DNA of 64,000 nucleotides from Malus domestica (taxonomy: Eukaryota; Streptophyta; Magnoliopsida; Rosales; Rosaceae). Shown here in pieces: positions 168 to 45,834 of the stretch; position 1 is the stretch's first letter, and each line of letters begins with the position of its first letter. The notes beneath the pieces were generated by a model. The model was given only the letters and a program-made list of their open reading frames with translations, had not been told where the DNA came from and did not search any database. The stretch covers positions 35,084,001 to 35,148,000 of the forward strand of contig NC_091667.1 in the NCBI RefSeq assembly GCF_042453785.1. Reading direction: 5' to 3'. A program made the translations under genes and the position numbers.

Positions 168-2459
168 TCAGTTTCCTTGGCCGACTTGGCATGTACCATT
201 GTCGTCGGTCATCATTGGTAGAGGTTTCGGAATCTCTTCATTTGTTTTACCATCGTTCTGTTTCACTGGTGCATCACGAGCTTCTGTCATAACTTGATAA
301 AGCTCCGAAGGGAGAGCTGCTGGATCCAATTCCCAACAACCCTTTGGAGCATTATGAGCTTCTTCACCTGTAAGTAAGTGACTAGGGACCCGATGCGAGA
401 AACGGAACATCTCCTCTTTAGGAATCCGTTGCACTTCCTTGGGGTCTGTGTGCTTACGAAACACTGTTTTAAAACCAGCGACCTTAGATAGAGGAGCGAC
501 AGACACACCATGTTCCTCAGTAAACTCGTCAAGCAGTTCCACCATGTCATATTTGTTGATTACTGCATCTGGGGTATGCTGATTCCATTCAGGGGACCAG
601 TTCCTATATAGAGCCCAGATTTCACCCCTTGTAGGAAATATGCGAATCATCCCTCGTGTGCCTTTTGTCCAATTAACCTTGCTTGAGAAAGAATTTAAAG
701 TATCAGATATTGCATATTTGCCAGGCCTGAAATCACCACAAGTTTTAGCAAAACCAGAACCTACCCAGTTCAGCGTACCCAATTCATTGTTGCTTCTCGA
801 GTTAAGCCAACTGACCCGCATCTTAAACGGCTTCAAGGAGATCACCTTTTGAATTCGACCATAATAACGAGGCATACCATCATTATCATATGCAGCCCAA
901 ACTTGGTCCTCTCCAAAGGATCTTTCAGTTCGATCCAAGTCAAAATTATGAAAATCGGGGTCTGGAACGTTGATCGGCATTGGTGACTTATCCTCTACAT
1001 CTGGAGCACTGTTTGTGCTTGTGTCAACATTTACCACACTCTTCTGTTTCTTTTTTACTTTCACAGTTTCTTGCTCTTTCTTTGCCTGCTTTGCTTCAGT
1101 TGCTGAGCTCCGCGCAAGAAAATTGCGAATTGAAGTTAGTGCCGTCTCAATTAGAACTTTTCTTATTACCGGATACGGAACCTCTCTGAGGACCTTAGGT
1201 TTGTCCTGTGCACTAGAGAAATCATAAATTCTTTTCGTTCCAGAATTACCTTTACTCAACTCAGATATACCTCCCAAGTCGGCTCCACCACTTCCCATGG
1301 CCATTTGATTAGGCCTTTTTTTATCATAACCGTTCAAATGAGGATCATCCGTTCTTCTCTTTTTCAATGTAGGATTTCCCTTCAAATTTTGACTCCTTTC
1401 CCATTCAGCAATTGACTGTCTCCGCTCTGAATTTCTATTCATATTCTCACTTGCCTGCTGAACCGCATCCACAGCAGCGTGACCCGATGCAACTGTGCTA
1501 CCGATACTTGTCACTTTGGTGGCAGAGCCCTGCTTCAAGTTTGTGTTGTTGTTTGAATTAGAACCTGAAGACCCCCCAGCTCCTACATTTTGAGCTGCAG
1601 CACAGTTTCTTCCAGAACTATTTGAGTTACCACCAGCAGCATAGTGTCTTGAATTCTGATGCTGCTGGGAAGAAGAGCTCTTGGACGACTTGAAAATCTC
1701 TGCAGGTGGAGCCTGTTCTACAGCCAAGAAAGTCTTCTTACAATTAGGACAGACAAGAAGATGATGTAGATACATTCTGACATACTGATAATGAGTTTTG
1801 CAATGGTTGCAAATGGTCCAAAATGTAGCAGCTTTTGCATATGAAGGTATATGGGTGGAACCGCGCTGGGTCCTCGCATTCATAACATTCTGAAAGGTAC
1901 TTGCACTAGGTTGCGTTGACGGACCTCCACTACGGTGTGCAGCTTCCTGTTGAGACGCTTTTACAGTCTTCCTGACACTATTCATACAATTTTGAAAGGT
2001 GCTTGCACTAGGTTGCACTGACGGACCCCCAGTACGGGACACTGCTTCCCGTTGAAACCCTTGTACATTCCTCATGTGGTTATATGCTACCCTCTTGGCC
2101 TTGTCTGATAACAAAGTCCAGGCCTCTGAAACCAACTTAAATGCGCCTTCTGCACCAAAACACTTGTTTTTATCAGGATGAAGCATGAAAGCCAACTTTC
2201 TATACTCTTTCTTAATTGTCTCATCATCAGCATACGGAGTAACACTAAGTACTCCATACCAATCTGCTTCCCCATTAATTTTATTCTCCGAAGAGATGTA
2301 AACATCAAGTATAGTCAACATTTGGGAGAGACCCTCAAGCTCGGGACACAAATTTAGAGCTTTCAAAACAAACTTCTTAGCACTAGCATAATTTCTTTCT
2401 GCAAACTTCCTCTCAGCAAGTTCCTTAGCCTTGACCGCATCATCTTTATTGCACTCCAT
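168..2459 (-). CDS. J-domain co-chaperone with DUF3444 (763 aa)
   Basis: A single uninterrupted coding exon. Residues about 66-130 form a J domain with the HPD tripeptide at 94-96, which in this family stimulates the ATPase of Hsp70. A CxxC...CxxC zinc-ribbon-like patch lies near residues 213-245 (CNHC and CPNC). The C-terminal third, about 530-735, resembles DUF3444, the plant-specific module usually paired with J domains in large nuclear or cytosolic DnaJ proteins. The linker contains an imperfect duplication (two copies of PSxQPSASTFQN, about residues 145-195). The start is the first ATG in the open frame and MECNKDDAVKAKELAERKF is the usual beginning of this family. The leader seems to be spliced. 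The client proteins cannot be told from sequence. Confidence 0.93.
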   Translation of the reverse strand: MECNKDDAVKAKELAERKFAERNYASAKKFVLKALNLCPELEGLSQMLTILDVYISSENKINGEADWYGVLSVTPYADDETIKKEYRKLAFMLHPDKNKCFGAEGAFKLVSEAWTLLSDKAKRVAYNHMRNVQGFQREAVSRTGGPSVQPSASTFQNCMNSVRKTVKASQQEAAHRSGGPSTQPSASTFQNVMNARTQRGSTHIPSYAKAATFWTICNHCKTHYQYVRMYLHHLLVCPNCKKTFLAVEQAPPAEIFKSSKSSSSQQHQNSRHYAAGGNSNSSGRNCAAAQNVGAGGSSGSNSNNNTNLKQGSATKVTSIGSTVASGHAAVDAVQQASENMNRNSERRQSIAEWERSQNLKGNPTLKKRRTDDPHLNGYDKKRPNQMAMGSGGADLGGISELSKGNSGTKRIYDFSSAQDKPKVLREVPYPVIRKVLIETALTSIRNFLARSSATEAKQAKKEQETVKVKKKQKSVVNVDTSTNSAPDVEDKSPMPINVPDPDFHNFDLDRTERSFGEDQVWAAYDNDGMPRYYGRIQKVISLKPFKMRVSWLNSRSNNELGTLNWVGSGFAKTCGDFRPGKYAISDTLNSFSSKVNWTKGTRGMIRIFPTRGEIWALYRNWSPEWNQHTPDAVINKYDMVELLDEFTEEHGVSVAPLSKVAGFKTVFRKHTDPKEVQRIPKEEMFRFSHRVPSHLLTGEEAHNAPKGCWELDPAALPSELYQVMTEARDAPVKQNDGKTNEEIPKPLPMMTDDNGTCQVGQGN

Positions 2460-2604
2460 AGTTTCCCTAACAGTCTCAATACACTTCCTCTGAGTCTTTA
2501 CTTAACTGGAGCAGTAAGCATAATACGAGAAAAAGTATTACATTCGACAACCCCTAGCCATTTTTCCTTCCCAGAAAGCGGTCATGACTACGGATGTTAA
2601 ATAC

Positions 2605-4172: not shown

Positions 4173-5099
4173 TTATTTAGTTTATTGGATGTAAGTTTAG
4201 TTTAATTTGTTGTCACATTTTTTTTAACAAAATGTTACATTTAAATTTCTTATGTATCCTAGTAAGGCTCATGAAGAATTTAGGGACAATGTGGCATGTT
4301 GGAGAGCCTTAGCCCTTATCTATGTCCTACATTCCAAACATTTTCATATTTAAATAATTAAATTCTCTTTTTTCAATCGAAAAGTAAATTACATTTTTAT
4401 AAGATATCGGTAAAACATTGATATTGATACATAATATAATTTTTAAGTATATGATAAAAGGTTTAAATCTTAACCAAAATTAGACGCCCTCTTTCACTTG
4501 TATATCAAATTTCGTTTGCAAAGTGATTTGTAGATTAATTGATAAATTGTAACCAATAAGAGCACTTCCACCGTGTGCTCCAGCCCGAGGGACAGGCGCA
4601 TGAATAGGGCCAAAGAGCTCGAGTGATGAAGCCCAGCGTGTGCTGGCAAGCGAGCCCGAGCAGGCTGGAGGGAGAGGCCTGGCATGAGTTGCTGGCCAGA
4701 GCGCCCGAAAGGAATGTGACGTGGGCTGACGTCAGCCACATTTTTTTTATTTCAAAGAACCCATATCCTAAAATTAATCAACATTTCATACACCCAAAAA
4801 TTAAACTTGTTGCTTGCATCCATGAAATGGGGGAACAAGATGAATCAGGAAGATAACTACGTTTAAATACCATCTCCATCATTTTCTAAATTCAATGAAT
4901 TAAAAAAAAAAAAATTTGCTCTTTCTGTTTTTTTCTCTTAACTTGTTGCTTGTAGATCCATGAAATGGTAGAAGGATGAATCAGGAAGAATGCCCAATTT
5001 GCACGATGAATCTCCCATTTTTCGTTGTAAAACGAATCCCCAATTTGCAAGATGAACCATTCTCTCGGCTGCAAGACGAATCCCTAATTTCTCTAATAT

Positions 5100-5502
5100 T
5101 GTTTGTACCATATTTAGGGCCTCTGTATTTAGAACTCATATAAATACTCGGGGGACTCAAATGTAATTATGTAATAAATGAAGGAGCAAATATGTAATAA
5201 GTGAGGAGCCTTTATTCTATAAAAGGAATCCTCACTATCCTCATTAAGGAAGGTCAAGATTCGGGCCAAGATGGAAGCCAAGTTTGAGGCCATGGAAAGA
5301 GAGCACACAGAAAATAGGCTAGATAGCACACTGCCTCTAGCATTCTTGTATATTTACCATTCAGAGTGAAACAATATAAACATCAGTGTGGACGTAGCCC
5401 AAACATTGGGGTGAACCACGATACATCTTGTATTCTTTACTTTTTTGCAAATTTACGGTCGGATTTACGTTGTTCCAAGACCTCTGGTTTTGTGCATCAA
5501 CA
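5100..5502 (+). repeat. 5' LTR
   Basis: TG...CA ends and a TATA-like TCTATAAAAGG at about 5217-5227. It is collinear with the right copy at 10214-10616. The left flank is AATAT. Confidence 0.92.
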
Positions 5503-5521
5503 TTTGGCGCCATCTGTGGGA
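5503..5521 (+). other. Primer binding site-like motif
   Basis: The sequence TTTGGCGCCATCTGTGGG begins right at the LTR edge. A TGGCGCC start is a usual tRNA-primer match in plant Gypsy-type elements. The exact tRNA is not determined. Confidence 0.65.
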
Positions 5522-5748
5522 AACGACACGAAAAGCTATGTCGGTTCTCTTTCGTTTTTTCACCTCCGCTGTGAATCTGCAAAAACCCAAGAACCCAAAG
5601 TTTTCCCAGAAAACCCACGAAGCCACCTCCTCTCTCACTTAGTCTCTCCCTGTAACTGCAAGACAAATTCCCGCACCAATTCCTCACTCGCTCTCTAAAA
5701 AACCAGAACACAAACATTTCATCTGCAACAAAGGCGACAAAAAAGGCG

Positions 5749-6105
5749 ATGGAAGTTGTGAAGGGCCTGGATTTACAGCGCTACATGGCGCGGTGGTACG
5801 AGATTGCCTCTGTTCCGTCGCAGTTTCAACCCAAGAATGATGAGAACACGCGTGCCACCTACACTCTGAAAGACGACGGCACCGTGAATGTGCTAAACAA
5901 GACTTGGATCGACGGGAATAGGGGGTTCATCCAGGACATCGCCTAAAAGGTAGACCCGAATAGCGACGAGGCGAAACTGAAGGTAAGGTTTTATGTTCCG
6001 CCATTTCTGCTTATCATTCCTGTCACGGGGGATTGCTGGGTTTTGTTCATTGACGAGGATTATCAGTATGCTTTGATTGGCCAGCCTAGTAGGAGTTCCC
6101 TTTGG
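5749..6105 (+). pseudogene. Temperature-induced lipocalin (TIL) fragment captured in the LTR element
   Basis: The translation from 5749 opens MEVVKGLDLQRYMARWYEI, the characteristic N-terminus of plant temperature-induced lipocalin, and continues through the FYVPPF and YQYALIGQPSR blocks, about the first 120 of roughly 185 family residues. Similarity stops at an LW followed by GTGAGA, which looks like an exon end plus splice donor, so the copy probably came from genomic DNA. The copy is truncated and broken and should not make a working lipocalin. The parent TIL gene is not in this window. Confidence 0.85.
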
Positions 6106-6190
6106 TGAGAATTAGTATTGTCGGTTGAAAAAATATATAGAGCTCCAGCTCGAGTCCCAAAGCCCGAGTCCCGAACCCTACCGCTGCAAG

Positions 6191-6447
6191 TACTGGTGCC
6201 CAGTTGCGGTACTTCCCACCTATCTGAACACCTCTATAATGCCGGATTTAAGGCCATCACCAACATTGACTTATCTAAGGTCGCCATTTCCGACATGTTG
6301 TGCCGCAATGCACGTATACGCCCTGGTATGAAGTGGCAAGTCATGGACGTCACTGACATGCAATTCGAGGATGAGAGCTTTGACGTTGTTGTTGATAAAG
6401 GCGGCTTTGATGCTTTTATGGACCCAGAGTTTGGCGTGCAGATGCAG
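6191..6447 (+). pseudogene. METTL13-like methyltransferase fragment captured in the LTR element
   Basis: The frame from about 6191 encodes LVPSCGTSHLSEHLYNAGF, then ITNIDLSKVAISDML, then DESFDVVVDKGGFDA. These are the SAM-binding motif I region and following strands of the plant METTL13-like (eEF1A lysine methyltransferase type) class-I methyltransferase. Only about 85 residues of the domain are present, ending near GVQM. It starts after a CTGCAAG that could be a splice acceptor and lies about 85 bp after the lipocalin piece in the same orientation. The fragment is too short for activity. Confidence 0.8.
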
Positions 6448-6544
6448 AAAAACAGAAAAATCCGTTCAAGAAGACCAGACCGACAGCAGATAAGAATAAG
6501 ATAAGCTTTCTCAATAATCAGTCTATTATTATTCCTTTTGTCTG

Positions 6545-6745
6545 CCATCTGCCAAAAGAAAGAAAAACAGAGAGAAAGCAAAAGCAAAAAGAGAAAAAAA
6601 GATGCAGTGAACAGAGAGAAAGAAAAGAAAATAGAAAAAAAGAAACATAAACAAAAGCAAAAGCAAAGCAGAAAATAAAAGAGAAAAGAAGAAACAAAAA
6701 CAAAAGCAAAAGCAAAGCATAAAGCAAAAGAAGATAAAAAGAAGC
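6545..6745. repeat. Purine-rich (A/G) low-complexity tract
   Basis: About 200 bp of almost pure purine on the plus strand, made of AAAGCAAAAGC and AGAGAAAG words. It produces long Phe/Leu-rich open frames on the minus strand that are not genes. It is interior filler of the LTR element. Confidence 0.8.
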
Positions 6746-6976
6746 AAACATAATTGCGGTGGTGATGACATGTATAAAAGGAAATTATAGGCGTGACCCA
6801 TTGAGCAGAGGGGCGGATTTATTTTTGAATGATGTAATTTATTTTTCTTATCTTTCGGAGATATCTGTATAACCCAATCAGAGGGTAATCATATAAAAAA
6901 AAAGGGCAAGCCCAAAATAATGGGCTGGAATGTTATGTGGAGGGCGAAGGTCCATATGCCCAAAAGAGTCAGGCCC

Positions 6977-7240
6977 TTTATTATCACAAACCAGGTGATC
7001 AAAAGTACATCTAGTACTCCAAAATTATTCGGCAACCTGCTGCTATTATCACCAATCAGGTGATTAAAAGTACGTCAAGTACTATAAAAAATTATTCGGC
7101 AGCCTGCCGCTATTATCACCAACCAGGCGATCAAAAGTACGTCCAATACTCCAAAATTATTCGGCAGCTTGTCGATATTATCACCAACTAGGTGATCAAA
7201 AGTACATTCAGTACTCCAAAATTATACATGAGCATCACTC
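6977..7240. repeat. Four tandem units of about 66 bp
   Basis: Units start TATTATCAC at about 6979, 7045, 7111 and 7177. Each contains CCAGGTGATCAAAAGTAC, a TACTCCAAAATTATTCGGCA block and a CTGC(C/T)G end. They lie inside the LTR element. Confidence 0.85.
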
Positions 7241-7520
7241 ATATCAAACATACATAAACATTCATGAGCATCACTCATGTCAATCATACATAAACATTCA
7301 TGAGCATCATTCATGTCAACATTCATGAGCATCATTCATCTCAACATCCATGAGTATCACTCATGTCAATCAACATAAACATTCATGAGCATCACTCATG
7401 TCAATCAGCTTCGAAAGCTTCACTTACAGAGCTCCACCTTCAAAAGCTCCAGCTTCAAGAGCTTCATTTACAAAAGCTCAAACTTCAAAGCTTCACTTTC
7501 AAAGTTTCACCTACAAAGCT
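7227..7520. repeat. Two short tandem arrays (CATGAGCATCA and AGCTTCA words)
   Basis: From 7227 to about 7410 the phrase CATGAGCATCACTCATGTCA recurs six or more times with CATAAACATT between copies. From about 7405 to 7520 a 12-mer near TTCAAAAGCTYC recurs about eight times. Both abut the left end of the nested hAT-like element at 7554. Spacing and unit length are irregular, unlike a CRISPR array. Confidence 0.8.
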
Positions 7521-7553
7521 TCAGTGCATGGTATATAAAGACCGTCTCCAAAC

Positions 7554-9254
7554 CAAGGTATAAAATATCGAAGATATCGAAAATATCGGTAGTTCAAAAA
7601 TACAGAAATATCGATGGAAATATCGGGATATTATTGATATCGATAAAAATAATATGGAAACCACGGAAATTGTAAGAAAAACTTTGAAATTTTTATTGAA
7701 ACTTTGCAGGATGTTTATTTAGTCAATTATCTATTAGTTTATCACAAAACATTGGAAGGAAATGCATTGCATGATGGATTTAACTGATTTAAGTTGATTA
7801 TATAGCGAGCTGGCAAACATTGTGAGTGTAGAAAATATGTAGTAATTAATGAAAGAAGTTTAAACACACCATAATCATTTATATATAATGACTTAGTGCA
7901 ATATTTTACACTTTATACATTGTATGGTAAGATACATAAGTTACACAAACAACGGGAAATTAATGAGAAAGCCCTTCCCAAAACGTCAGCACCCACTATT
8001 TTGATCACACTAATCCAACGACTCAATACCATTGATAGCCTTAAAAAGAAAAAGAATTGTTTGGTCTTAAAAAGAAAACGAAAAGAAAATATTATATTAT
8101 AAGAATATAATATAGTATTGTTTTAAAAGATAGATAGTTTAAGGGGTAAAAATAGAAGGACAGTTTAATCTTTTGCTGGAAAAGACGTCGTGATCTAGTT
8201 GAGTAATCCAAATTGGAAGAGGATACAAGCCAGATCTAGCAATGTCAGTCACAATTACTTCATTTATTTACCAAAAAACCAAAAAAAAAATTGTTTTAAA
8301 ACATAACAAATAATATAATGTTATCTTAATCATTTATATAATATATTTATTGGACCAAAGCAATAACAATAGGAAGAAGGATTCACAAGATCTTGTTCCT
8401 GCATCTCTTTGTCCAACTTTGATAGTGGGTAATTATTTTTTATTTTTTTTAACTATGTGGGTGGTAGACTTTCACACAAAACTAGGCATTTTTTTCCACT
8501 TTCCCGATTTCCCTGCTGCCTAATTTCTATCAATCATCTCAACTTCTCTGTTTAACCCTCTATCTTCTTCTCTTCTGATCCCTCGTTCTAACCCTCCATG
8601 TCTACTCCGCACATCTTCCTCTATCACTCCCTCTAAGCCACCATGGTAATTCTCCATTTTCAAGCACAACACATCTCACGAACACACACACACTTACCCG
8701 CTGTTCGTCTCTTCCCAGCTCCGCCGCACAATTCCACCACCACCATGGGTCGCGTCCGCACAAAGACAGTGAAGAAATCCTCCCTCCAGGTGATTGAGCG
8801 CTACTACTCGCGTATGACCCTGGACTTCCACACCAACAAGAAGATCCTCGAGGAAGTCGCCATCATCCCTTCCAAGTGTCTCTGCAACAAGATTGCCGGA
8901 TTCTCCACCCACCTCATGAAGCAGATCCAGAAGGGCCCGGTTCGTGGCATTTCCCTGAAGTTGCAAGAGGAGGACCGCGAGCGCCGCATGGACTTTGTCC
9001 CCAAGGAGTTCGCCATCAAGATCGACGAGATCTCCGTCGACAAGGAAACCCTCGACATGCTATCCGTTCTCGGTATGGCTGACATGCCTGGTTCAAGCGG
9101 GTCGACCCGGAAGCTCAGACTCAAATTTGCATAATATCACGATATTAACGATATTATGACGATAATTAAGAGGATAAGTATAAAAATATCGTCATCTCAA
9201 AAAAACGATATTATCGACGAAATATCGCCGATAATATCGATATTTTGTTCCTTG
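7554..9254. mobile_element. hAT-like element carrying a ribosomal protein S17 copy (Pack-hAT)
   Basis: The ends CAAGGTATAAAATATCG (7554) and CGATATTTTGTTCCTTG (ending 9254) are inverted repeats matching at 15 of 17 positions. They are flanked by a perfect 8-bp duplication CTCCAAAC (7546-7553 and 9255-9262), the size made by hAT transposases. Both subterminal regions are rich in ATATCG words. The 1701 bp interior contains no transposase but does contain an S17 coding copy with a pyrimidine-rich leader, so the element moved with help from elsewhere. It sits inside the LTR element. Confidence 0.85.
8745..9134 (+). pseudogene. Ribosomal protein S17 (eS17) gene copy in a hAT-like element, C-terminus lost
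   Basis: The frame from [13 protein letters not shown] covers about 115 residues of eS17, including [20 protein letters not shown] and [15 protein letters not shown]. It keeps the family start and stays open to a stop at 9132. After GMADMPG (9090) the usual C-terminal tail is replaced by element sequence. Several conserved arginines are Cys or Gln, as expected from C-to-T decay at methylated CpG. The upstream 8520-8744 is pyrimidine-rich like a ribosomal-protein leader, so promoter and leader may have come along. A functional product is unlikely, though the open frame means transcription cannot be excluded. Confidence 0.88.
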
Positions 9255-9394
9255 CTCCAAACAACCGCCATACATGGATTAAATTTGAAGTCTCCAGCCA
9301 ACATACCCTATTGACTAAAGACTTGAAGGACTACACTATGTACCATATATTGAGCTTCCGCAACTGGGCCTCATGAAAAATACTTGGGGAACTT

Positions 9395-10010
9395 AGCCCA
9401 TTATTTACGTATTGAGGAGCGAACCCTTATTCTATAAAAGGGACTCCCTCACCTCCATTAGAGAGAGACTCTTAGCCCATCACTTATGTATTGAGGAGCG
9501 AGCTCTTATTATATAAAAAGGACTCCCTCACCTCTATTAGAGAGCATCGCTGCCAGCTGAACAACCGCATCGCTGCAAGCATCACTCTTAACCCATCACT
9601 TATGTATTGAGGAGCGAGCCCTTATTATATTAAATGGACTTCCTCACCTCCATTAGAGAGCATTGCCGCCAGCTGAGCAACCGTCTCGCCACAAGCATCA
9701 CTCTTAACCCATCATGTATGTATTGAGGAACGAGACCTTATTCTATAAAAGAGACTTCCTTACCTCCATTAGAAAGTATCGCCGCCAGCTGAGCAACCGC
9801 CTAGCTGCAAGCATCACTCTTAACCTATCACGTATGTATTGAGGAGCAATCCCTTATTCTATAAAAGGGACTCCCTCACCATCATTAGAGAGCATCGCCG
9901 CCTGCTGAGCAACCGCCTCGCTGCGAGCATCAACTCTAGCCCATCATTTATGTATTGAGGAACGAGCCATTATTCTATAAAAAGGACTCTCTCATCTTCA
10001 ACACCACAAG
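9395..10010 (+). repeat. Tandem array of about 116-bp units resembling the LTR core-promoter segment
   Basis: Six units begin near CCATCAnTTATGTATTGAGG (about 9393, 9477, 9593, 9709, 9825 and 9942). They contain GAGCGAGCCCTTATTCT, TATAAAAGGGACTCCCTCAC and CCATTAGAGAGCATCGCCG. The GAGGAGC, TTATTCTATAAAAGG, CTCAC and CATTA order is the same as in the LTRs at about 5200-5255. The array therefore looks like an amplified piece of LTR, TATA box included. The first unit is shorter than the rest. Confidence 0.8.
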
Positions 10011-10213
10011 CCGAGCCAACCAAGGCAACATAAGCCACAAGCCGAGCAGCCTCGCAACATGTGCTACTTCTAGTTGAGCATCATTTCACATTGAGCACCG
10101 CCTCATATCGAGTATTCAGTTCTAGACGACATCGAGTTACTTCGACCCACACATGAATTGAATTTCAAGTCTCCAGCCAAAAGACTATCTTGACTGAAGA
10201 CTTGGGGGACTAC

Positions 10214-10616
10214 TGTTTGTACCATACTTAGGGCCTCCGTATTTAGACATCGTATAAATACTCGGAGGACTCAAATGTAATTATGTAATAAATGAAGGGG
10301 CAAATATATAATAAGTGATGAGCTTTTATTCTATAAAAGGACTCATCACTCTCCTCATTAAGGGAGGCCAAGATTCAGGCCAAGATGGAGGCCAAGTTTG
10401 AGGCCATGGGAAGAGAGCACACAGAAAATAGGCTAGAAAACACATTGCCTCTAACATTCTTGTATATTCACCATTCAGAGTGAAACAATATCAACATCAG
10501 TGTGGACGTAGCTCAAACATTGGGGTGAATCACGATACATCTTATGTTATTTACTTTCTTACAAATTCACGGTCGGATTTACGTTGTTCCAAAACCTCCG
10601 GTTTTGTGCATCAACA
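10214..10616 (+). repeat. 3' LTR
   Basis: Same TG...CA boundaries and length as the left LTR. It follows a CTTGGGGGACTA purine-rich stretch and is followed by the AATAT duplication. A block just upstream (about 10150-10213) is also present at about 9275-9340, an internal duplication. Confidence 0.92.
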
Positions 10617-11145
10617 AATATAAAAAGTCATACAGAAGAAGATGACGGAGATTACGAAGCAGCCATGATGGAAATGACCCAGTCGACGAGGAGGCAAGCC
10701 GAAGCCAAAGCCAAATCAGCATCTTCAAAGCCACATCCATGTCATTTACTTTTTCTCAAAAGAAATTGTTTTGTATTATTTTGTATTATTTTATAAATAA
10801 ATAAAATATTGTATTGCCTATTGCTAGGACTATTCAGTGTAGGAATGAAGATGTAAAAGGCAGTTACTGTTCATTGAAGGAATGGATTAAATAGTGAATA
10901 ACCTTAAGAACCCTTTCCCACGGTGCGACTGCTCTAAGTGTCAAACATTGTACATCGGTTCGATTGGACATAAATCAATCCATATCGTCCAATAATCTTA
11001 GCAGCCAACGAGCCGTATTATTAAGAAATGTTCGAAATGGGACACCATACATTTGTGACCAAAAAGCAGAATGAAAACAAAAGGGCCCAAGCCACGTACA
11101 ATATCAACAGCACAGGGTACAAGCAGCTTCCTCAAAATTTGACCC

Positions 11146-14994: not shown

Positions 14995-17962
14995 CTAATC
15001 TTGGTGAGGACTGGCTGGCCCTGCTTTGTCATGCTGGAACTTCACCACAATGCATGTTATGTTGTCTGCACTGCCACGGGAAAAGGCAACCGCCGTCAAC
15101 TTTCGAGCTGCTGCCTCGGGTTCTTCTTCTGTTTTGGCAACTTCAACAGCAACCTGACACATGAGGGAGAAATAGATACGCAGGGAGCCAGGGTTTAACC
15201 AAACCGATAATCCGAGGCCAAGAAAACGAGATCTTATCATTACACATACGTACGCAAAAGAACTGCTCATCCCACTGTCCGACGGTGGAAGGACAGGTGA
15301 ATGGCCGGGGTAGGATTTTACCTCATTTGGTAGCACATCCCATACCCCATCACTAGCAAGCACTAGAAACTCAAAATCTTCATCCACCACTAGGTCCTGA
15401 GATAGAATGAAAAAAAACTACTGAAAACTTTTCTTTTAACTTCCGATCTGTGTTGGTTTTAGTTTTAGACATTTGGAATGAAAAATCTTCAAATCTAGGG
15501 GATACTAATCAATGTAACATCCATGACGAAACAAGTAAATTGTGATTTTTCTACCAAAATAAGACTCCTCGGATGCAACAATTACTAGGAAATTACTATT
15601 TACCATTCACAACTAGGCTCCTAGACCAGATTGTAGAAAGAGTAAAGACCGGTTCAATGCACGGACAGATTAAACCCACAGAAAACAAATAAAGAAATAA
15701 GTTAATCCAGTATCAAACAGTAAGAATTTTGATGATCACCTGGATCTCAGGTTCTGCAACAACATATTGCTTCAACATGCGGTTCCCAAAAGCCCGAGAC
15801 ATGGCCAGCACACCGCCTACTCTCCAAGTGCCTGAGAATATAACAGAAAAGTAGGTGAGTTAGAGTTACCTTGATTTATCATAATTGTTAAAAGAGTAAA
15901 ACAAGCAGCTCTACAACTGTTATTGGATGGCCGCAAACCGTGTAGAAATTTCAAAGCCCATAAATGAACTCAAGAATAGGCACCACATAAGCACACTGGG
16001 AGAAACAACCGATGCGTGAATAACACATTATTTGTTTGTATAAATATATAATGACAGCCAACATATAGAGATTATAGTTTCTTGCTTCAATCAGAAACTT
16101 TGAAGTCTTACCTGTCCACATTACAAAACCCCCAGCACTCTCAATTCTCTTCCTCTCATCACTTCGATTTGGTTTATGATCCTCGGACAAAGCAATAGCT
16201 ATCCAAAATGGGAAAAACGAAAACTACTTTTAGAAATCCAGCATATCAAAATATTAAATTCATACATTCTATATGATTACATTCAACATTTTCAGCATGG
16301 AAAGGTGTCCGATATACTTCATGATGAATTCAGTTACATATCATAAAATTTTAACCACTTTTCAATAACTAATGATTCAATTAATACCTTTTCCTGCCTT
16401 TGATATTACTGTACGTGAATCTCCAACATTAGCAACATATAGATGGTTACCAACCAAGACTGCTGTTGAAGCAGTAGAACCATCATCCCGGTATATATCT
16501 CTTTCAGAATCCAAAAAGTCTGCATCGGTCTGTTGATATGATTCACCTGCAAGGTCACCCAAGTTACCCAGAAGAACCAAACAGACCTATGTCACAGGGT
16601 AAAAAAGTGTTCCATGCAGAACCCCACAGCTTGATGAAATGACAGGGATAAAAACATTTTATCTCTTTCCACCTGACCTAAGAGGCACATAACTAAATAA
16701 TTCCACCCATATGGGATGAGGATCCTGTGTCAGAACAATGGACATGCTACAACCATGCCACCCTAACGTTTTATTGTAAGTGCTGCACAAATTTAGGTAT
16801 AAAGGAACTTGGACGCACTAATAGCTAACTTAGTGTCTGTCATGAATTGTGGATGCTTCATGAGATTCTCAAATAGATGCTCCTTCAAATATTGAGCAGC
16901 ACGAGAACCGCCATGACCTGTAAAAATAGACAAGAAAAATTAGAAAACCTTGCATCATACACAGGACAAGTACTTTCTACTTCAGCCAACAGGTAAAATG
17001 CTTATATTTGACTGAAATCTCAGGACAATTACATCTTAGGAATAAGGTCAAAGTTGCGTAGCAGAACCCTCACATATATGCGAGTAATATCAACCGGCTC
17101 GATGATTAAATTGATAATTTCTTTCATTATTTCCTTTACGTGGAAAGTAACCATGTGAGATCTAAAGTAGCAAAAGTCAGATTCGCCCAACCTTTTGCCA
17201 CCGTAGTTTCCTAAGGGTTCAGCCACTAAATGGTTGCAACTATGTTCGAAAAACCTAAATTCATTCCATGTGTCCAAACACTCTGGATTCTTATGTAGAC
17301 AGCATTTCATATACATTGTGACGAATGATTTTTAGCCCTACATTTAAGACTTTTAGTAATCAGAACATATTCCGTTATCTAAAATAAAAGAAGATAAAGA
17401 GAATCTAACCATCGAAAATACCAAACAGGCAGACCGTTTGCCCATCAATTTTGGACATTTTAACATCATAAAAATCCTCCATAGTTGCTCTTTTTCCCCT
17501 GAAACTGGAATAACCGCAACTCAGTTCTCCACCTTCGCTGTCAATGAGACACAAAAGGAACACGAAGTTAAGTCCAAAGATTAATTCTTTGACAGCCAGC
17601 ACCAGTTAGATCATTCAATATTCGAACGGGTCTGCTCATAGTTGAATAAGGATATCGATTTTGCCTATTGATTTCACACATTAATAAAGACAGATAAGGA
17701 TAACCGATATAAACCTTTTGCACCCTCCACTGGTATATTCACCATCCTCATCTTTGTCAGGCAGCACATCAAAAACGGATCCCTGTTCATCCGTCGCGCC
17801 TGTATCAACCATCATCCTCAAACTCGACCTAAATGCTCGGTTCCACGAATTGGCAAGCACGCAAATTCTATCAGTATTGTTGAAATGCACCCTTGCCTTC
17901 GTAGACGTTACGATATTCCCAGCTTGAACAATCACACTCCTTATGTAACTTTTGCAGAGCAT
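14995..17962 (-). CDS. Protein phosphatase 2C (PPM family), 8 exons, 348 aa
   Basis: Exons in coding order: 17962-17715, 17537-17410, 16917-16819, 16546-16388, 16198-16112, 15831-15740, 15396-15322, 15153-14995; total 1047 bp in frame. All PP2C motifs are present: [17 protein letters not shown] (about 90-106), FDGHGG (about 123-128), DDGSTA (about 178), [31 protein letters not shown] (about 284) and GSADNITC. The metal-binding aspartates are therefore kept. It is a Mg/Mn-dependent Ser/Thr phosphatase. The sequence is closest in style to the plant WIN2/PP2C11-like clade, not to the ABA co-receptor clade A. The 82-residue N-terminal extension has no clear signal. The leader may contain another intron upstream of 17962. 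Confidence 0.93.
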
Positions 17963-19925: not shown

Positions 19926-20602
19926 AAAAACATTAAAATAAAAGCACATAGAAAAGTGATCAGCATCTATATACTAAAACAAATTATAATCTTAATAATT
20001 TAATATCCGATAATTAATAATCTCGGTTAAATATTATTTTGGTCAATCCCGACTTGAGAATAACATGTTAAATATTAATTCACAAAATTTATAATATATA
20101 AATTAATAACCAAATTTAACCTTGCTCTCAAAATGCAATCTCTACTAGTCCTTTTAAGAAAAATACTTTCAATATTACATCCATAATCTATCATTATTGT
20201 GTTAGTAATGCAGCAATTTTTGTCAAGAGTAATGTTAGGGTGACCAAATTTTTAAAACAAATGTTGTAAATCAAATTATGTGAACGTTAATAATTGAATT
20301 ATTACTTAAGTATTGATTAACGTGCTTATTTCCTATTAATGACATCTCTTTTGATTTGCAAATTTGGTTTAGAAATTTGGTCTCCTTAACATTACTCTTT
20401 TATTAGAGAGCGTTAGTAGATACTGAATCTTTATAGCATGACTATCTTTGGTTGATGGATATGTAAAAGGGCTAATAAACCCAATTAACCTTTGTTTTTA
20501 TGGCGAGGCCAAGCTGCTAGCAAAGCATAAGCTGCCTTTGGGTTCCATTGCTCCACGCTACAGCTAGTATTAAGGCTCGAGTGGGGGCGTAGCTCTTTTG
20601 GT

Positions 20603-21440: not shown

Positions 21441-22120
21441 TCAATGTGTATGTTTTCTTTCAGTTTGTGCTTCATAGATTGTCAAATCCGCACCTCAAAC
21501 TTCCGAGGAAGTGAATGGAAATACATCCGCAATTCCATTTCTTGTTCCTTCAAATCTCATTTCCTCGCAACTTTTGACAGCAAATTTTTCTTTTTGACAA
21601 GTTGACATCAGGTTCGCAGTTGTGTAGCCTGAGTTATACAACATGTTACAAACAGAAATTGGCTTTAAACTTTTTCCCTAAAATTTCAAAATGGCAAGCA
21701 TAGGGATTGTACGGAATTGCTTTTAAAATAACCGAAACTACTTTTAGTGAAAAAAATGTTTTTGAGACCAATCTTTATGAAAATGCAAGTGAATTAAAGT
21801 AATTTTTACAAGAAATACATAATTGGTGCTTCTTTTGCATAAAACATCTCTAAGTGCTTCGGAACCCAAAAATTGAACCTCCATTACCATTTGCCAATAC
21901 CACAAAAACGTTTTCAATTATTTTAAAAATTTCATGGTGAAGCAATGGCGACCATAAAAAGTGCGCAAGTTGATAGGTCTGTCAAGTCAACAGAAGCAAC
22001 CATGGCCATGGATGGATCGAACTCTCACAAGCATTGTCAAAGAAGTTTCCAGGAAATTTCACTCCTCACGAGTCAACCAATCGAATTCTGATGACTTGGA
22101 CTTTTGCGTCTCTTTGTACG

Positions 22121-22334
22121 GGACTTGGATTCTCTGCCCTCCCATTTCGGTGCCCTTCCCGTGCCCTCCTGTTTTGTGTGGTCACGGTTAAGCCACATCA
22201 ATATTTTATATTATTTTTTATAAAAATAATAAGACAAAAAAAAATTATAAAATATTGACGTGGCTTAACCGTGACCATACAAACAGGAGGGCACAAGGAG
22301 TGCACCGAATTGGGAGGGCAGAGAATCCAAGTCC
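22121..22334. mobile_element. Mutator-like hairpin MITE, 214 bp
   Basis: The two arms (about 22121-22205 and 22253-22334) are near-perfect inverted copies beginning GGACTTGGATTCTCTGCCC. The flanks are a perfect 9-bp duplication CTTTGTACG (22112-22120 and 22335-22343), the Mutator-type length. The arms include GGTCACGGTTAAGCCAC. RNA from it would fold into a long hairpin. Confidence 0.85.
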
Positions 22335-22343
22335 CTTTGTACG

Positions 22344-24178: not shown

Positions 24179-27100
24179 ATGAATTTTCAGCAAGAGAAGT
24201 TCGTCAGGTTAGTTTGACAATTATTACTTATAACGTTACATACATGATATCATGTTGTGTTGACTAGTTTGCAACTATATAACACTTTTCTCGCTTTCAG
24301 AACCAAATAAGTTTGGATTTTTGGATGTTTCGTTGTCCTGCTACTACGAAGTACTTGCCTGAATTTTTACATCACAGTGTCAATGGGATGATATAATGTG
24401 CCATTACTGTTGCTAATTTCACTTCTTTCCCTGGTTCCGTCCTCATCTGAACTCTTTGTTTGTTGCTAGGCTGCTAGCGTTGGCACATAATTACACCACC
24501 CTGTCCCTGCCCTTTCATTTCAGAAATATGTTATAACTTTTGTATGTAATCCTAGACGCTTGGAAATCTCCTTATGTGTTATTTATATTGGAATATCCAT
24601 ACCGTCTTATTTCAGGTTTCAGGACTGCACTGCAGAGAAAAATGTTGAGCCATTATATTCTCCAGATGATGATATGCCACCAGGGAAGTTCAGAAGAACG
24701 ATTAACTCGGTCTCAGCCAAATTCCAAAGACGCTTGGAATCTGGTTCTGAGCTGATTAAAAAGTCATGGAAATCTTATTCAATTGACAGTGTTGTCGCCA
24801 ACAGCTTTGGTGGTAGAATTCTTGATCCTCAAGGGCCATTCCTTCAGAAGTGGAATAAGATATTTGTATTGGCATGTATTGTTGCTGTCTCCCTTGATCC
24901 CTTGTTCTTTTACATCCCGGTGATTGATGATGCAAACAAGTGCCTTGGTTTGGACAGGAAGATGGAGATAACAGCTAGTGTTTTGCGTTCATTCACAGAT
25001 ATATTTTATATTGTTCACATAATTTTCCAGTTTCGTACTGGATTTATTGCTCCTTCTTCTCGAGTGTTTGGAAGAGGTGTTTTAGTTCAAGATGCTTGGG
25101 CCATTGCAAGGAGGTATCTCTCATCATACTTCGTAATTGACATTCTTGCAGTCCTGCCTCTCCCACAAGTAAGCTAACCCTTCCTAGTTTGTATGAGGTG
25201 CATTAATATATTGTTTGGTTACCCATCTAATATGGCGGGTTGAGGAGTATCTTTATGCACAATCTCTGCTCTCTCCGCATAGGATGGGTAATCATTTTTG
25301 CCCAATATTGTGCATACTCTTGGTGTTGCAAGTATTACTAAATCATATGTCGTATCTGCTACTTTAAATTCGGCTTATAGTGTGGTTAGTTGTAGCTGAT
25401 GTCTTGTTTAGATTGGAATGTTTGTGCAGTATTTTGATTCTACTTTGGATCCCTAATAATACTATGAAATATGTCCAGGTGGTTATTCTAATTTTCATTC
25501 CCAAATTGGGAGGCTCAAGAACGTTGAATACAAAGAATTTGTTGAAGTTTGTGGTTTTGTTCCAGTATCTTCCAAGGTTTATACGAATATATCCATTGTA
25601 TAGAGAAGTCACAAGGGCATCTGGTATACTTACCGAAACTGCTTGGGCAGGAGCTGCATTTAATCTTTTTCTTTACATGCTTGCCAGTCATGTAAGTTTG
25701 ATCATGATATTCACCGCTACAATATAATTGCTCGTATTTTTTAAATCTTCTGATTTTCAAGTGATATGCTGTTCTTAGGTACTGGGAGCCTTTTGGTACT
25801 TGGTCTCTATAGAACGTGAAACCACGTGCTGGAAAGCAGCATGTGGGAACAATGCAACCATATGCTCGGGCAAGGATTTATACTGTGATACCGCGAGCTG
25901 GAATGCTTCCACATTCTTAAATTCTTCCTGCCCAATACAAGATGAAGACAAATTAAAGTTCGATTTTGGAATATTCCTTGATGCCCTTCAATCTGGTATT
26001 GTTGAGTCAAGCACGGATTTTCCTCAGAAATTCTTTTACTGTTTTTGGTGGGGCCTACGGAATTTGAGGTGTGCCTATACAACTTGTCTCAGTCTGCATT
26101 CTTAGGGTCTTCTGACGGTGATCTCAGTAGAGTTAACTTTTAAAAGGAGTATTTTATATTTGGTCCAGTATCTTTATTTGGTATTGATTCTCGATATTCT
26201 CATTTTGCAGTTCCCTTGGTCAGAACCTTGCAACCAGTACATATGTATGGGAAATCTGCTTTGCAATCTTCATTTCTATCGCTGGATTGGTGCTATTTTC
26301 ATTTCTCATCGGAAATATGCAGGTTGGTACTTAGTGTTGTGCATGTAGTTTTTGCAGGATTGAAGTATCGTTTCTATTTCTGTCGTGAGGTCCTGATGAA
26401 CTTTAAATTGTTGAAACAGACATATTTGCAGTCTACAACCACAAGATTGGAGGAAATGAGAGTGAAAAGGAGAGATGCTGAACAATGGATGTCCCACCGC
26501 TTGCTACCCAATGATTTGAGAGAGCGCATCAGGCGGTACGAACAATATAAATGGCAAGAAACCAGAGGCGTTGATGAACAGAATTTGATATGTAATCTTC
26601 CGAAGGATCTTAGAAGGGACATAAAGCGCCATCTCTGTTTGGCTCTGCTTATGAGAGTGAGTTTCTCCACCATTATGTTATTGTCATCTTAGTGTGCCTT
26701 TCAAACCGCTAGATATTGATTCTTTCTTTTTCCTTGACTGCATTAAAGGTGCCAATGTTCGAGAAAATGGATGAACAACTGCTCGATGCAATGTGTGACC
26801 GTCTCAAGCCGGTACTGTATACAGAGGCAAGCTATATCGTTCGGGAGGGAGACCCAGTCGACGAAATGCTCTTTATTATGCGGGGCAGGCTATTGACTAT
26901 GACCACAAATGGTGGAAGAACCGGTTTCTTCAACTCAGAGTATCTCAAGGCCGGTGACTTTTGCGGCGAAGAACTTTTGACATGGGCTCTTGATCCCCAC
27001 CCATCAGCTAATCTTCCCATCTCGACCAGAACTGTCCAAGCCCTTAGTGAAGTTGAAGCCTTTGCTTTAAAAGCGGATGACTTGAAGTTTGTAGCCTCTC

Positions 27101-27447
27101 AGTTCAGGAGACTCCACAGCAAGCAGCTCCGGCACACATTCAGGTTATACTCACAACAGTGGAGGACTTGGGCAGCCACTTTTATACAAGCAGCGTGGCG
27201 CCGCCATATGAAGAAGAAGCTAGAAGAGTCTCTGCAGGAAGAGGAGAATAGGCTGCAAGATGCATTGGCCAAGGCCGAGGCCAGCTCCCCAAGTCTAGGC
27301 GCCACCATTTATGCCTCCCGTTTTGCTGCTAATATACTGCGTACTTTACGGCGCAGTGGTACACGGAAGGCAAGGGTGCCAGAGAGACTACCGGCCATGC
27401 TACTTCAGAAGCCGGCGGAGCCTGATTTTACTGCTGAAGAACAATAA
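24179..27447 (+). CDS. CNGC1: Cyclic nucleotide-gated channel, CNGC1-like, 7 coding exons, 710 aa
   Basis: Exons: 24179-24207, 24616-25168, 25479-25691, 25779-26068, 26211-26322, 26420-26656, 26749-27447; sum 2133 bp, in frame. It starts MNFQQEKFVRF as CNGC1-type channels do. Residues about 90-400 hold the six membrane segments and the pore. The pore is FFYCFWWGLRNLSSLGQNL with the plant GQNL filter. A C-linker follows, then the cyclic-nucleotide-binding domain at about 480-600, and a calmodulin-binding IQ motif AATFIQAAWRRHMKKK near residue 620. It is a plasma-membrane cation (Ca2+) channel subunit of group I, regulated by calmodulin and possibly cyclic nucleotides. Length and domains are normal. 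The leader may contain upstream ORFs. Confidence 0.94.
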
Positions 27448-29270: not shown

Positions 29271-30900
29271 ATGGCAGATTCCATTTCCTACCAACTTCTG
29301 TTTCCAAAAATTGAGACCGACCCACATGAGTTTAACTCCTCCATACAGTAAGATGATCGAAAAATTTATACTTCTTGCTTTTTTTTCCCTTTTAATCTTC
29401 CATTTATTTGTTCAAACATCTCAAGAACTGAAGAAGGCTGTATATATATGTGTGTGTGTTTGTGTATGTATATGTTTTATGATTTTTACATGAATTTTAG
29501 TACATGGGTTACTTTACTTTTGCAGTGCTGCTGCATTAGACAGTCTGCACCTTGAAAATTTCAATGGTTTCGATTCACCGCCATTGCCATTGGGATGCAA
29601 TTCCAACCAGCTTCCACAAATGGGTTCAAAAGATTTTGAGGATTCAGGCATCTGGGACTACATTTTGGACGACGCTGCTTTTCCATCAACTTTTGGTTAC
29701 GAGGTGGTTGATGAAAAGCCCCTGACAACAATGGCGGAATCCGTTGACTGTTCGAACAGTGTTTCGGGTGATTCGGACGATGTTTTGAGGACGATCGAGT
29801 GGGGGATGAAGATTTGGGGCAAAGATGAAGAGGGAAGCAGGACAAAAAATGAGAGTTTTTGCAAGAAGAGGTGTGCCACTCCATTGGAACTGGACGAGAT
29901 TCAGAAGTATTTCGACGTGCCGATAACTCAAGCGGCCAAGGAGTTGAAGGTGGGATTGACGGTTTTGAAGAGGAGGTGCAGGGAACTGAACATCATGAGG
30001 TGGCCGCACAGAAAGATCAAGAGCTTGAATGCTCTCATTGAAAATGTTAAGGTACGTATTTGCATGTTCATGTGTTGTCAACTTGTCATATGATATTCAG
30101 TGTCATTTTTGTCCCATGCTACTGGTTCCCCTCGAAACGGGAAAAATTTTGGTGCCATGGGAGTATAGTTTCACGTTGGTATATATTTCTTATCACGTGA
30201 CGAGAGATATACTATTAAGAGTTTTTCTCAATTTTTTTCTATAAACGAAGACTACTTAGGATGTCATTGCGAGACTACTTAGTTCATTGTTAGGCCCATT
30301 ACTATTGTTCTAAATTCTGACAAAGGACACAGGGTGACTACTTAGTTTATGGATCAAAAAGTAAAAGAGGGTTTGAAAGCAATCTTCCAAGTCTTGAAAT
30401 ATCTCCGAAATATCCTACATATTAGTAAACATGTATTGCGATGAGAATGACTTGAAAATAAGGTTAAGATTATTTGAAATCAATCAATTAACCCCCTCAC
30501 TATTAGATTCTATGAAATTTTATTCACTTTGTCGTCAAATATTAGCACGACTTTATCCTCAAGAGTGAATAATGTGTTGGTCACGTGCCAGTATTTGACT
30601 ACACAATGAATGAAATTTCATCAAATATGACAGTAAAGGGTTAATTGACAATGATCTTTGTTTTTGGAAAGTCGTAATTAGTAATGTAGGGATTGACGGT
30701 TGAAAATTGAAATATTGCAGGGGATGGGATTGACGAATGATGTGATGATGCTGGAGGAGCACAGGAGGCTTCTAGAGCAGATGCCGGACAAGGAGTTGCC
30801 GGAGAGAGCCAAGAGGCTGAGGCAGGCTTGCTTCAAAACCAACTACAAGAAGAAGAGGGCTTTGTGTTTGACTGCTCTGCCGGTCCATGATTTAGTCTAG
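29271..30900 (+). CDS. RKD (RWP-RK domain) transcription factor, 3 exons, 260 aa
   Basis: Exons 29271-29347, 29526-30051, 30721-30900; 783 bp, in frame. The RWP-RK domain spans about residues 138-190: [20 protein letters not shown], then [13 protein letters not shown] and RWPHRK. This is the DNA-binding signature, here without the GAF and PB1 regions of NIN-like proteins, so it belongs to the short RKD subfamily. RKD proteins act in the nucleus and in Arabidopsis control egg-cell and reproductive identity; the role here is inferred. The N-terminal half is acidic (SIWDYILDD-type region). A basic KTNYKKKR segment follows a predicted short coil near the C-terminus. Confidence 0.92.
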
Positions 30901-31688: not shown

Positions 31689-31868
31689 GGATCCTCTTCG
31701 GATTCATTTCCACCAAATCCACCTACTTTGGGATTCGACCGTTGAAATTTAATTCAACGACTACAAACAGAAGACCCTTTTAAAAGTTAAAACAATTGTA
31801 GCCGTTAGATCAAATTTCAACTGCTCGGATCCCGAACTAGGTGAATTTGGTGGAAGGGGATTTCCTTG
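31689..31868. repeat. Palindromic MITE-like repeat, about 180 bp
   Basis: Left side GGATTCATTTCCACCAAATC mirrors right side GAATTTGGTGGAAGGGGATTTCC. CGTTGAAATTTAATTCAACG mirrors GTTAGATCAAATTTCAACTG. A diverged relative is at 18705-18870. Confidence 0.65.
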
Positions 31869-34060: not shown

Positions 34061-34687
34061 TTAATGTAACTCAAAAAATATGTTTGTATATGGACTCAGA
34101 TGAGAAAAATGATTAAAGACATTAAATTTGAGTGGTAATTCTCTTAAATCTTGTATTCGAAACTTGTGTATATCAAATTCAAAATTAATTAAAAACTTGC
34201 ATTTTTCGTTCTAAGTAAGCATATCAGGGGGCGTTTGTTTGCCCTCACTAAGTGGGACTGGACTGGACTAGCTGTTAGTCCAATACTGTGTTTGTTCCAT
34301 GCTGGGACTAACATTAATGAGACTAAATGGGACTAGCATGGACAAAACCCTTCACTAAGAGGTATTAGTGAGACCCCCCAATAACCATGGGACTAACTAA
34401 GACTATCCTCTCTCGTCCTCGTCATGCTCAACAACCACTCCCGATAGACTCCTCGTCATCTCCGGTCACCTAGATCATAATAAAATATTAATAATTTATA
34501 TATTAAATAATGTAAAAATATCAATGTACTCAAAAAAACATGTTTGTATATGGACTTAGATGAGAAAAATGATTAAAGACATTAAATTTGAGTAGTATTT
34601 CTCTTAAATCTTGTATTCGAAACTTGTGTATATCAAATTCAAAATTAATAAAAAAACTCGCATTTTTCGTTCTAAGTAAACATATCA
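34061..34687. repeat. Direct duplication of about 150 bp flanking a 320-bp insert
   Basis: 34061-34206 and 34528-34687 are nearly identical (GTATATGGACTYAGATGAG, GTATTCGAAACTTGTGTATA, CGCATTTTTCGTTCTAAGTA words in order). The 34210-34527 insert starts GGGGGCGTTTGTTTGCC, reminiscent of a Harbinger terminus, and has repeated GGGACTGG / GGGACTA words. Confidence 0.7.
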
Positions 34688-35807: not shown

Positions 35808-36703
35808 TTATCTGCTCCTTATTTATACACTCCTACCGACATATTATACAGTGGCAGTGTAGAAAGTTAGGGTAAAACACGTAACAAAAACATTGCCAAT
35901 GTATTTGGTCAATTGTTTCTGCATTAATATTGGTTGAGGAAAATAAATAACTTCTTACTGGCTGGCTGTCAAGTTCAAGTAACAAGTTTTTAAAGAAGGC
36001 TTAGGGCCCCAAATAAAGTCCCATTCCTCTCTCAACACTTAGGCACAATGATTTACGAACTCTCGTGTTCTTTTTCTCCACTCGTTCTCTTGTTTTTGTC
36101 TTTCGATTCATCCTTGATACAATCAATATACAAAAGCTAAACAAATGAGCAGTGTTAGCGACAGAGGCCGATCCACCGTGGGATAAGGTGGGTCAGCTGA
36201 CCGCCAAACTTATAAATTCTTCATGGAAGAACTTGTGTTACCCTTATAAAACATGAAATGCCTTTGAAAGCTACACTCCAACTGTTCGACAAATTACCTC
36301 TATCGACATTGGGCAGGGTAGATGTTAGCCTCATCTCTTTGTATGCTTTGCTAATTGCTATGAGCATCTTTAGACATTCTCACTCGACATAAGTTTGCAT
36401 ATGTCGTCATACTCACTCAAAAGTTATTGACATAAGTTGACATACTCCTTCGAAAATTATTGGCATCTGTCGACAAGCGTGCAATATAACTTGGCAAATT
36501 CCCTTCCAACTCTAAAATGCCAAGTAGCCATGATAGAGTGACAATTACACATGATCTCTTTTTTCTTGGTATGAAAGTGTTGGACTTTAGACTTTTAAAT
36601 ACATAGCTGTATCCACTACCTGCCCATTAGGTCTTTAGTTTCATTTTTCTTTTTCCAATTGTCCAAGGAGGCAAGGATGCTTCTAGTGCTTCATTTTATT
36701 AAA

Positions 36704-36851
36704 GGGGTGTGATATCCACACATCTCATTTTACTTCTCACACACCCCTTGATAATTTATGTCCGTTGATTTTCTTCAATTCATCCGATCCGACTGTCGAA
36801 AATTAAAAAGGTGTGTGAGAAGTAAAATAAGGTGTGTGGATAACACACCCC
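36704..36851 (+). mobile_element. hAT-type MITE, family B, best copy
   Basis: Ends GGGGTGTGATATCCACAC and GTGTGGATAACACACCCC, flanked by a perfect 8-bp duplication TTATTAAA (36696-36703 and 36852-36859). 148 bp, with no coding content. Confidence 0.88.
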
Positions 36852-37499
36852 TTATTAAATTGTTTATTTTATTTTGCAGACATGAACATAATTAAGATGG
36901 TATAACAATGTGCCCACATTATGTTTTTATGTTCGAATTCTCCTTTTTATAATTAAATTACGCTCGAATAAATAAAAAAGTTATGTCCACGAAATAAAAT
37001 TAAAAAATTTAAAAAAAAAATACATTTGGACACTAGTTTTATGATCAAATGTTTACTTAAGGTGGAGGTTTCTATACCTAGCTACTCAAATCATTGGCTC
37101 CCTAAACGACAAAACAACAACAAGAAGAACGTGTGCTTACTATTTTGGAACAGAAAAATAATATGCATATATATATATTTTGTTTTTTAAAAAAGCATTA
37201 GTTAATGGCTTCGTTATGGTAATCCACTATTATGAGGGTTAAGAAAACTCACATAAACATTTCAGGCTTCTCTAACCACCATCATGCGTCCACCAACGTC
37301 GAAAATCAAATTTAAGAAGTGCCGTGTGAAATACGAACTTGAAATTTGTCTTTGATAGCCACCCGTGGTGTTCAAAATGCTTTTGATGAGGAATACAATT
37401 CAACAGAGAGAGAGAGAGATAGCAATAATAGCACCTAATTGACAAGAAAGCAACCTTCTCCTTCACAAGAAAGGTCGATGACCAAAGTTTTTAATCAGC

Positions 37500-45480: not shown

Positions 45481-45496
45481 TGATGTTATATGACAC

Positions 45497-45750
45497 TTAG
45501 TATTACGGTGTAGTAGTATTTCTCTTCATTTGTAAGTAAGATGTCTTAGGTTTGATTCTCGCCAAATGCGAGTTTGAATCACATTATTGCTAACTTATTG
45601 TGAGGCTAAGTTCATCCCCTCCCATTAGTGTAGATAATAACCTCACAGTTGACTAACAATAATGTGGTTCAAACTCGTTTTTTTATGAGAATTGAACATA
45701 AGACCTCTCACTTACAAATGAAGATGAATATCACTAAACCGTAGTATTAA
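45497..45750. mobile_element. Hairpin MITE, family C, about 254 bp
   Basis: The left arm TTAGTATTACGGTGTAGTAG...CTTCATTTGTAAGTAAGATG...GAGTTTGAATCACATTATTG is mirrored by the right arm CAATAATGTGGTTCAAACTC...CTTACAAATGAAGATGAATA...CCGTAGTATTAA. The loop is about 45600-45650. The arms contain GGTTTGATTCTCGCC, close to a tRNA B-box. No target duplication was identified. Confidence 0.75.
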
Positions 45751-45834
45751 ATGGCAAATCTTACCTCTATAAGAGCGACGGTTTAGACGTGGTTTACAAA
45801 ATGTTGTATGTCGTATGCTTAGCTTTTTCTCAAA

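Follow-up and report, generated by a model that had tools for sequence, protein, structure and literature searches.

Within the 64-kb window (the whole stretch of plant DNA that was analyzed), to the right of a host gene with a long frame encoding DnaJ, zinc-ribbon, and DUF3444 domains (171-2501, minus strand), lie three sets of paired termini, one inside the other, along with pieces of a temperature-induced lipocalin gene, a methyltransferase gene, and a gene for eS17 (Table 1). All six boundaries of these sets carry exact duplications, in the form of TAA, AATAT, and CTCCAAAC pairs, and the coordinates and flanking letters that an initial annotation had given for all three layers turned out to be exact, letter for letter. 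As a chance baseline, 2,000,000 draws of two random points from the nest region produced an exact match in 1.7% (3 bp), 0.14% (5 bp), and 0.0046% (8 bp) of cases. No Rfam families or tRNAs were found in the window, nor did it contain a further copy of any layer, apart from a 19-base poly-A match and repeats internal to the nest.

Table 1. Features of the nested elements, in order of position in the window
Feature	Position	Strand	Basis
Left duplication of shell, TAA	4557-4559		Exact match
Shell left arm, GAGCA end (probable TIR element)	4560-5094	+	Weak; shell sequence continues through AATAT (5095-5099)
Left duplication of LTR element, AATAT	5095-5099		Exact match; also part of shell sequence
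LTR element	5100-10616	+	LTR pair and 5-bp duplication
5' LTR, 403 bp, TATA box at 5218	5100-5502	+	LTR alignment
Putative primer binding site, TGG-initial	5505-5520	+	Sequence only
Piece of a temperature-induced lipocalin gene, interrupted by a premature TAA stop (5944-5946)	5749-6102	+	Structure-chain and domain matches
Open frame with partial SAM-dependent methyltransferase domain	6109-6504	+	2pxx_A, Pfam Methyltransf_11
Non-coding tandem repeats, periods of about 65, 36, 25, and 29-44 bp	6979-7523	+	Repeat analysis
Left duplication of hAT-type element, CTCCAAAC	7546-7553		Exact match
hAT-type element, 1701 bp, CAAGG inverted ends, ATATCG-rich subterminal repeats	7554-9254	+	Duplication and inverted ends
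eS17 fragment, residues 1-116 plus 13 codons and stop	8745-9134	+	7qix_K match
Right duplication of hAT-type element, CTCCAAAC	9255-9262		Exact match
Internal copy, diverged, of pre-PPT, PPT, and U3 of the LTR element (as far as its TATA box)	9268-9443	+	Self-alignment
Tandem array of 116-bp units after a single 79-bp step; 6/6 copies with a TATA-like string	9392-10008	+	Repeat analysis
Putative polypurine tract (PPT) region, G-rich	10195-10213	+	Sequence only
3' LTR, 403 bp, TATA box at 10332	10214-10616	+	LTR alignment
Right duplication of LTR element, AATAT	10617-10621		Exact match
Shell right arm, TGCTC end	10622-10934	+	Weak
Right duplication of shell, TAA	10935-10937		Exact match

The LTR element is a solid layer. 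Its two LTRs align without gaps and differ at 34 positions (25 transitions and 9 transversions), corresponding to 91.6% identity and a K2P distance of 0.091; they start with TGTTTG and end with CAACA, i.e., they are of the TG...CA type, and AATAT on both sides provides the 5-bp target duplication of LTR retrotransposons. Two bases past the 5' LTR is a putative primer site starting with TGG, and a G-rich tract directly precedes the 3' LTR. At the pear rate of 1.3e-8 used in PMC4668562, which may not be that of the host, the insertion would be about 3.5 My old. None of the nest frames scanned (nine proteins, of which one belongs to the neighboring gene and two overlap each other, plus 10 further, likewise longer frames) contained a gag, pol, or transposase family, and the LTR element was therefore classed as non-autonomous. 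A single match among the 10 further frames (E = 0.015) fell short of the curated cutoff of its family and was set aside. A search of viral contigs with two LTR patterns yielded no copies, while an 18-base LTR pattern present in three prokaryotic (bacterial) contig records was discarded, its occurrence there being close to our own estimate of chance.

The outer layer, the shell, is the least secure of the three. Its ends read GAGCACTTC and GAGCAGTCG and are inverted at 13/16 and 14/20 terminal bases, and the flanking TAA agrees with the published duplication of PIF/Harbinger elements (TTA/TAA; PMC2213677), a 3-bp match that by itself is expected for 1.7% of random pairs. Against the TIR length of 14 to 25 bp for PIF/Harbinger elements, the 13/16 match lies within chance as long as no further criteria are added. 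In randomizations covering flanks of about 1.5 kb, the combination of a 3-bp duplication and at least 13/16 inverted bases occurred 0.48 times per randomization (38 of 100 contained such a pair), and in the real sequence a second pair, 3668/10763, passed the same rule; at 14/20, 10 real pairs passed, 4560/10934 included, compared with a chance mean of 3.62. Together with the lack of any transposase or ORF1 family in the three shell-arm frames scanned against Pfam, these numbers speak for a locus of two layers only, a hAT-type element in an LTR element, with the supposed shell being ordinary intergenic DNA in which TAA and GAGCA match by chance. What argues against this is the co-occurrence of a 5/5 GAGCA terminal match, a CACCGTG core in register, and the TAA duplication: when the search was further restricted to pairs that matched at 5/5 terminal bases and were flanked by duplicated TAA or TTA, both being requirements that were set post hoc, after the sequence had been seen, one real pair remained and 7 of 400 randomizations contained one. 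In addition, the LTR insertion has one shell end to its left and the other to its right. On balance, we regard the two-layer reading as somewhat unlikely, though still a serious competitor, and the shell as probably real. Thus, whereas the initial annotation was correct on the letters of all three layers, their significance was borne out for the LTR and hAT-type elements and not for the shell. The basis for the label "Harbinger-like" is the TAA duplication together with the GAGCA inverted end; no transposase or ORF1 remnant was recognized in the three arm frames scanned, and the ends lack the terminal G(N)5GTT motif that served as a criterion in one screen of Medicago PIF/Harbinger elements (PMC2213677). 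With respect to mismatches, the shell (three in the first 14 inverted bases) would have passed that screen, which allowed four.

As had been assigned previously, both classes of element carry host gene pieces, with the lipocalin and methyltransferase pieces in the LTR element and S17 in the hAT-type element. The lipocalin piece consists of two halves separated by a stop codon: 5749-5943 and 5947-6102 match residues 27 to 89 and 93 to 143 of 8wb2_A (temperature-induced lipocalin 1, TIL-1), with E values of 1.5e-26 and 9.6e-24. The match is closely followed by TGGTGAGA, which might be a splice donor that was kept; the Arabidopsis gene has two exons according to the passages of PMC2527315 concerned, which give no more on the place of the intron. 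The best match of the methyltransferase piece was 2pxx_A (E = 5.2e-14), with a partial Pfam Methyltransf_11 domain, and its frame is open through 131 codons. For the eS17 piece, whose 129 open codons run from 8745 to 9131, the match to 7qix_K had an E value of 1.5e-61. Compared with five plant chains, which share at least 104 positions with each other, this piece is identical at 97 to 102 of 116 positions, and it departs from 7 of the 101 positions at which they are invariant (R14L, R45C, R47C, R60Q, E77D, S89F, and S112A); since invariance was judged on these five chains, perhaps unlike the host lineage, some of the changes could be ordinary variation. R45C, R47C, and R60Q would be changes expected from the loss of methylated CpGs. 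Ahead of the S17 start, at approximately 8646-8718, is a GT...AG stretch that could be a 5'-leader intron, in which case the capture route we would infer is at the DNA level.

The lipocalin and S17 pieces look decayed. We considered whether any of the gene pieces might have remained functional, for instance by giving rise to small RNA or by being expressed as a chimeric or S17-like protein, a notion that can draw on the open eS17 and methyltransferase frames. Given the premature stop in the lipocalin piece, the missing C-terminal part of eS17 and its changes at invariant positions, and the incompleteness of the methyltransferase domain, we think this very unlikely. Nothing seen in the sequence indicates an effect on the plant.

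The innermost layer has the 8-bp target duplication and short terminal inverted repeats of the hAT superfamily and, with a host gene fragment (eS17) between its TIRs, also the hallmark of Pack-TYPE (Pack-hAT) elements; no hAT transposase was recognized in the nest frames scanned. Its ends are inverted at 16 of 20 terminal bases, the first five without exception, a match that is inflated by the AT-rich ATATCG repeats just inside both ends. When 3.8 million pairs of positions within the LTR element were compared, an exact 8-bp duplication and at least 14/20 inverted bases coincided at 7554/9254 alone, and not one of 1,000 order-1 Markov randomizations gave a pair by the same rule. Under laxer rules for the ends, chance pairs did appear (in 4/100 randomizations at 8/10, 6/100 at 5/5, and 75/1000 at 12/20), as did a second, lesser real pair, 7613/9218 (12/20), located inside the element's own AT-rich repeats. 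The duplication CTCCAAAC also fits the form nTnnnnAn, which has been reported for the hAT element Hermes (PMC2803484). Beyond the right duplication, the sequence starting at 9268 matches that starting at 10147 (E = 3e-17; 74.6% in an alignment of 126 columns). Since the right flank is thus the LTR element's own pre-PPT sequence, the hAT-type element was inserted within the LTR element and is the younger of the two. That 7554-9254 was instead gained by the retroelement through recombination or template switching, and moved with the LTR element as a whole, is most improbable: gene pieces can be acquired by LTR elements through template switching (PMC13317346) and no sister copy was seen, but all 1,000 randomizations lacked what is present here, namely inverted ends combined with an exact 8-bp duplication in the hAT form.

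Taken together, these data make it likely that the locus is a three-layer nest of dead, non-autonomous transposable elements. A TIR element of about 860 bp with a TAA duplication, probably of the PIF/Harbinger or Tourist type, would have arrived first. Subsequently, a defective LTR retrotransposon devoid of recognizable gag-pol and bearing the lipocalin and methyltransferase pieces would have integrated into this element, presumably with reverse transcriptase and integrase provided in trans by a relative. Finally, the hAT-type element with its truncated eS17 gene would have been inserted into the LTR element, presumably by a hAT transposase acting in trans from elsewhere. It is the exact duplications in nests such as this one that make the order of events readable. 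Of the order proposed in the initial annotation, the placement of the hAT-type element after the LTR element is supported by its right flank, while the shell coming first is probable on weaker grounds.

The alignment between 9268-9443 and 10147-10340 extends across the PPT/LTR boundary, as far as the TATA box, which identifies the former as an old partial copy of the 3' end inside the LTR element. This inner copy runs into the 116-bp array, and, going by alignment scores, the units of the array resemble the TATA-box segment of the LTR element. Scores of the six copies were 34 to 41 against the 5' LTR and 34, 35, 25, 30, 33, and 34 against the 3' LTR; in 300 randomizations per unit against the 3' LTR, means were 15.7 to 16.9 and maxima 24 to 33, so that two units fell within the null (25 versus a maximum of 26 and 30 versus 33). 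The four complete 116-bp units that were compared share 84.5 to 88.8% identity with each other. Being less alike than the two LTRs, they suggest that the array probably predates the LTR insertion. One might speculate that the core promoter of the LTR element was amplified within the element itself, an old partial duplication of its 3' end (from the PPT through U3 to the TATA box) having seeded the 116-bp array, in which every unit retains a TATA-like segment shortly before the 3' LTR. We consider this scenario unlikely; if it were true and the array drives or buffers transcription, the element would represent a promoter-amplifying retroelement lineage that also acquired pieces of two host genes. 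The origin and function of internal tandem repeats are called unknown in PMC11963269, and an LTR-derived array would offer a concrete, testable case for their rise in such elements.

Among known systems, Retand Gypsy LTR elements likewise have tandem repeats downstream of their coding region and ahead of the 3' LTR, in about half of the recently active elements, and exist in non-autonomous forms (PMC11963269). Repeats of this type precede the 3' LTR here as well (6979-7523 and 9392-10008), a feature that is not specific to Retand; in contrast to Retand, no gag-pol, reverse transcriptase, or known antisense domain was recognized in the frames scanned. The capture of gene pieces by LTR elements is shared with the gene-fragment LTR retrotransposons of maize B73, although none of the 425 gene-bearing elements in that survey is reported to contain pieces of two genes (PMC2774510). 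Maize Bs1, an LTR retroelement with three transduced host genes (PMC13317346), does resemble our element in bearing pieces of multiple host genes; the genes are different, and no intact chimeric frame was recognized here. The description "uncommon" in the initial annotation can be retained for a single LTR element with pieces from two genes. Nests as such are commonplace, and so are captures. Pack-TYPE elements, including Pack-hAT (PMC8903248), combine a TIR element, an 8-bp duplication, and a host gene piece in the same way as our hAT-type element, of which one copy is known here. Medicago PIF/Harbinger elements share the TAA duplication with the shell, and some of them carry nested gypsy-like elements (PMC2213677), whereas the shell is without G(N)5GTT and a recognizable transposase or ORF1. 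The nest adds a further, well-formed case to a type of genome scar that is already known, in which class I and class II elements, both with host gene pieces, have come together at one place; among the matches listed from the open-licence literature, none describes the nest itself.

Elsewhere in the window, single GAGCA/TAA ends were noted at 45199, 21253, 56857, and 59042 (exact TWA form) and, in a looser form, at 26867 and 35813; no second element was recognized from them. Near-palindromic, MITE-like stretches are located at 22120-22335, 20225-20399, 31708-31855, 45488-45759, and 36692-36862. Two dispersed MITE-like families were observed, one of about 155 bp (35653, 43281, 52793, and 58217) and one of about 125 to 150 bp (31264, 36703, 45850, and 57960), as well as a direct repeat of approximately 165 bp, the copies of which (34063-34226 and 34523-34687) are 94% identical and 460 bp apart. 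An RVT_3 frame (reverse-transcriptase-like RNase H; 46352-47149, plus strand; E = 9.5e-21) belongs either to a gene of the RNase H type or to what is left of a retroelement. Lastly, frames with PP2C (14998-15417, minus strand), cyclic-nucleotide-binding (26713-27444, plus strand), RWP-RK (29494-30090, plus strand), and starch-synthase (61976-62572, minus strand) domains presumably represent exons of host genes.
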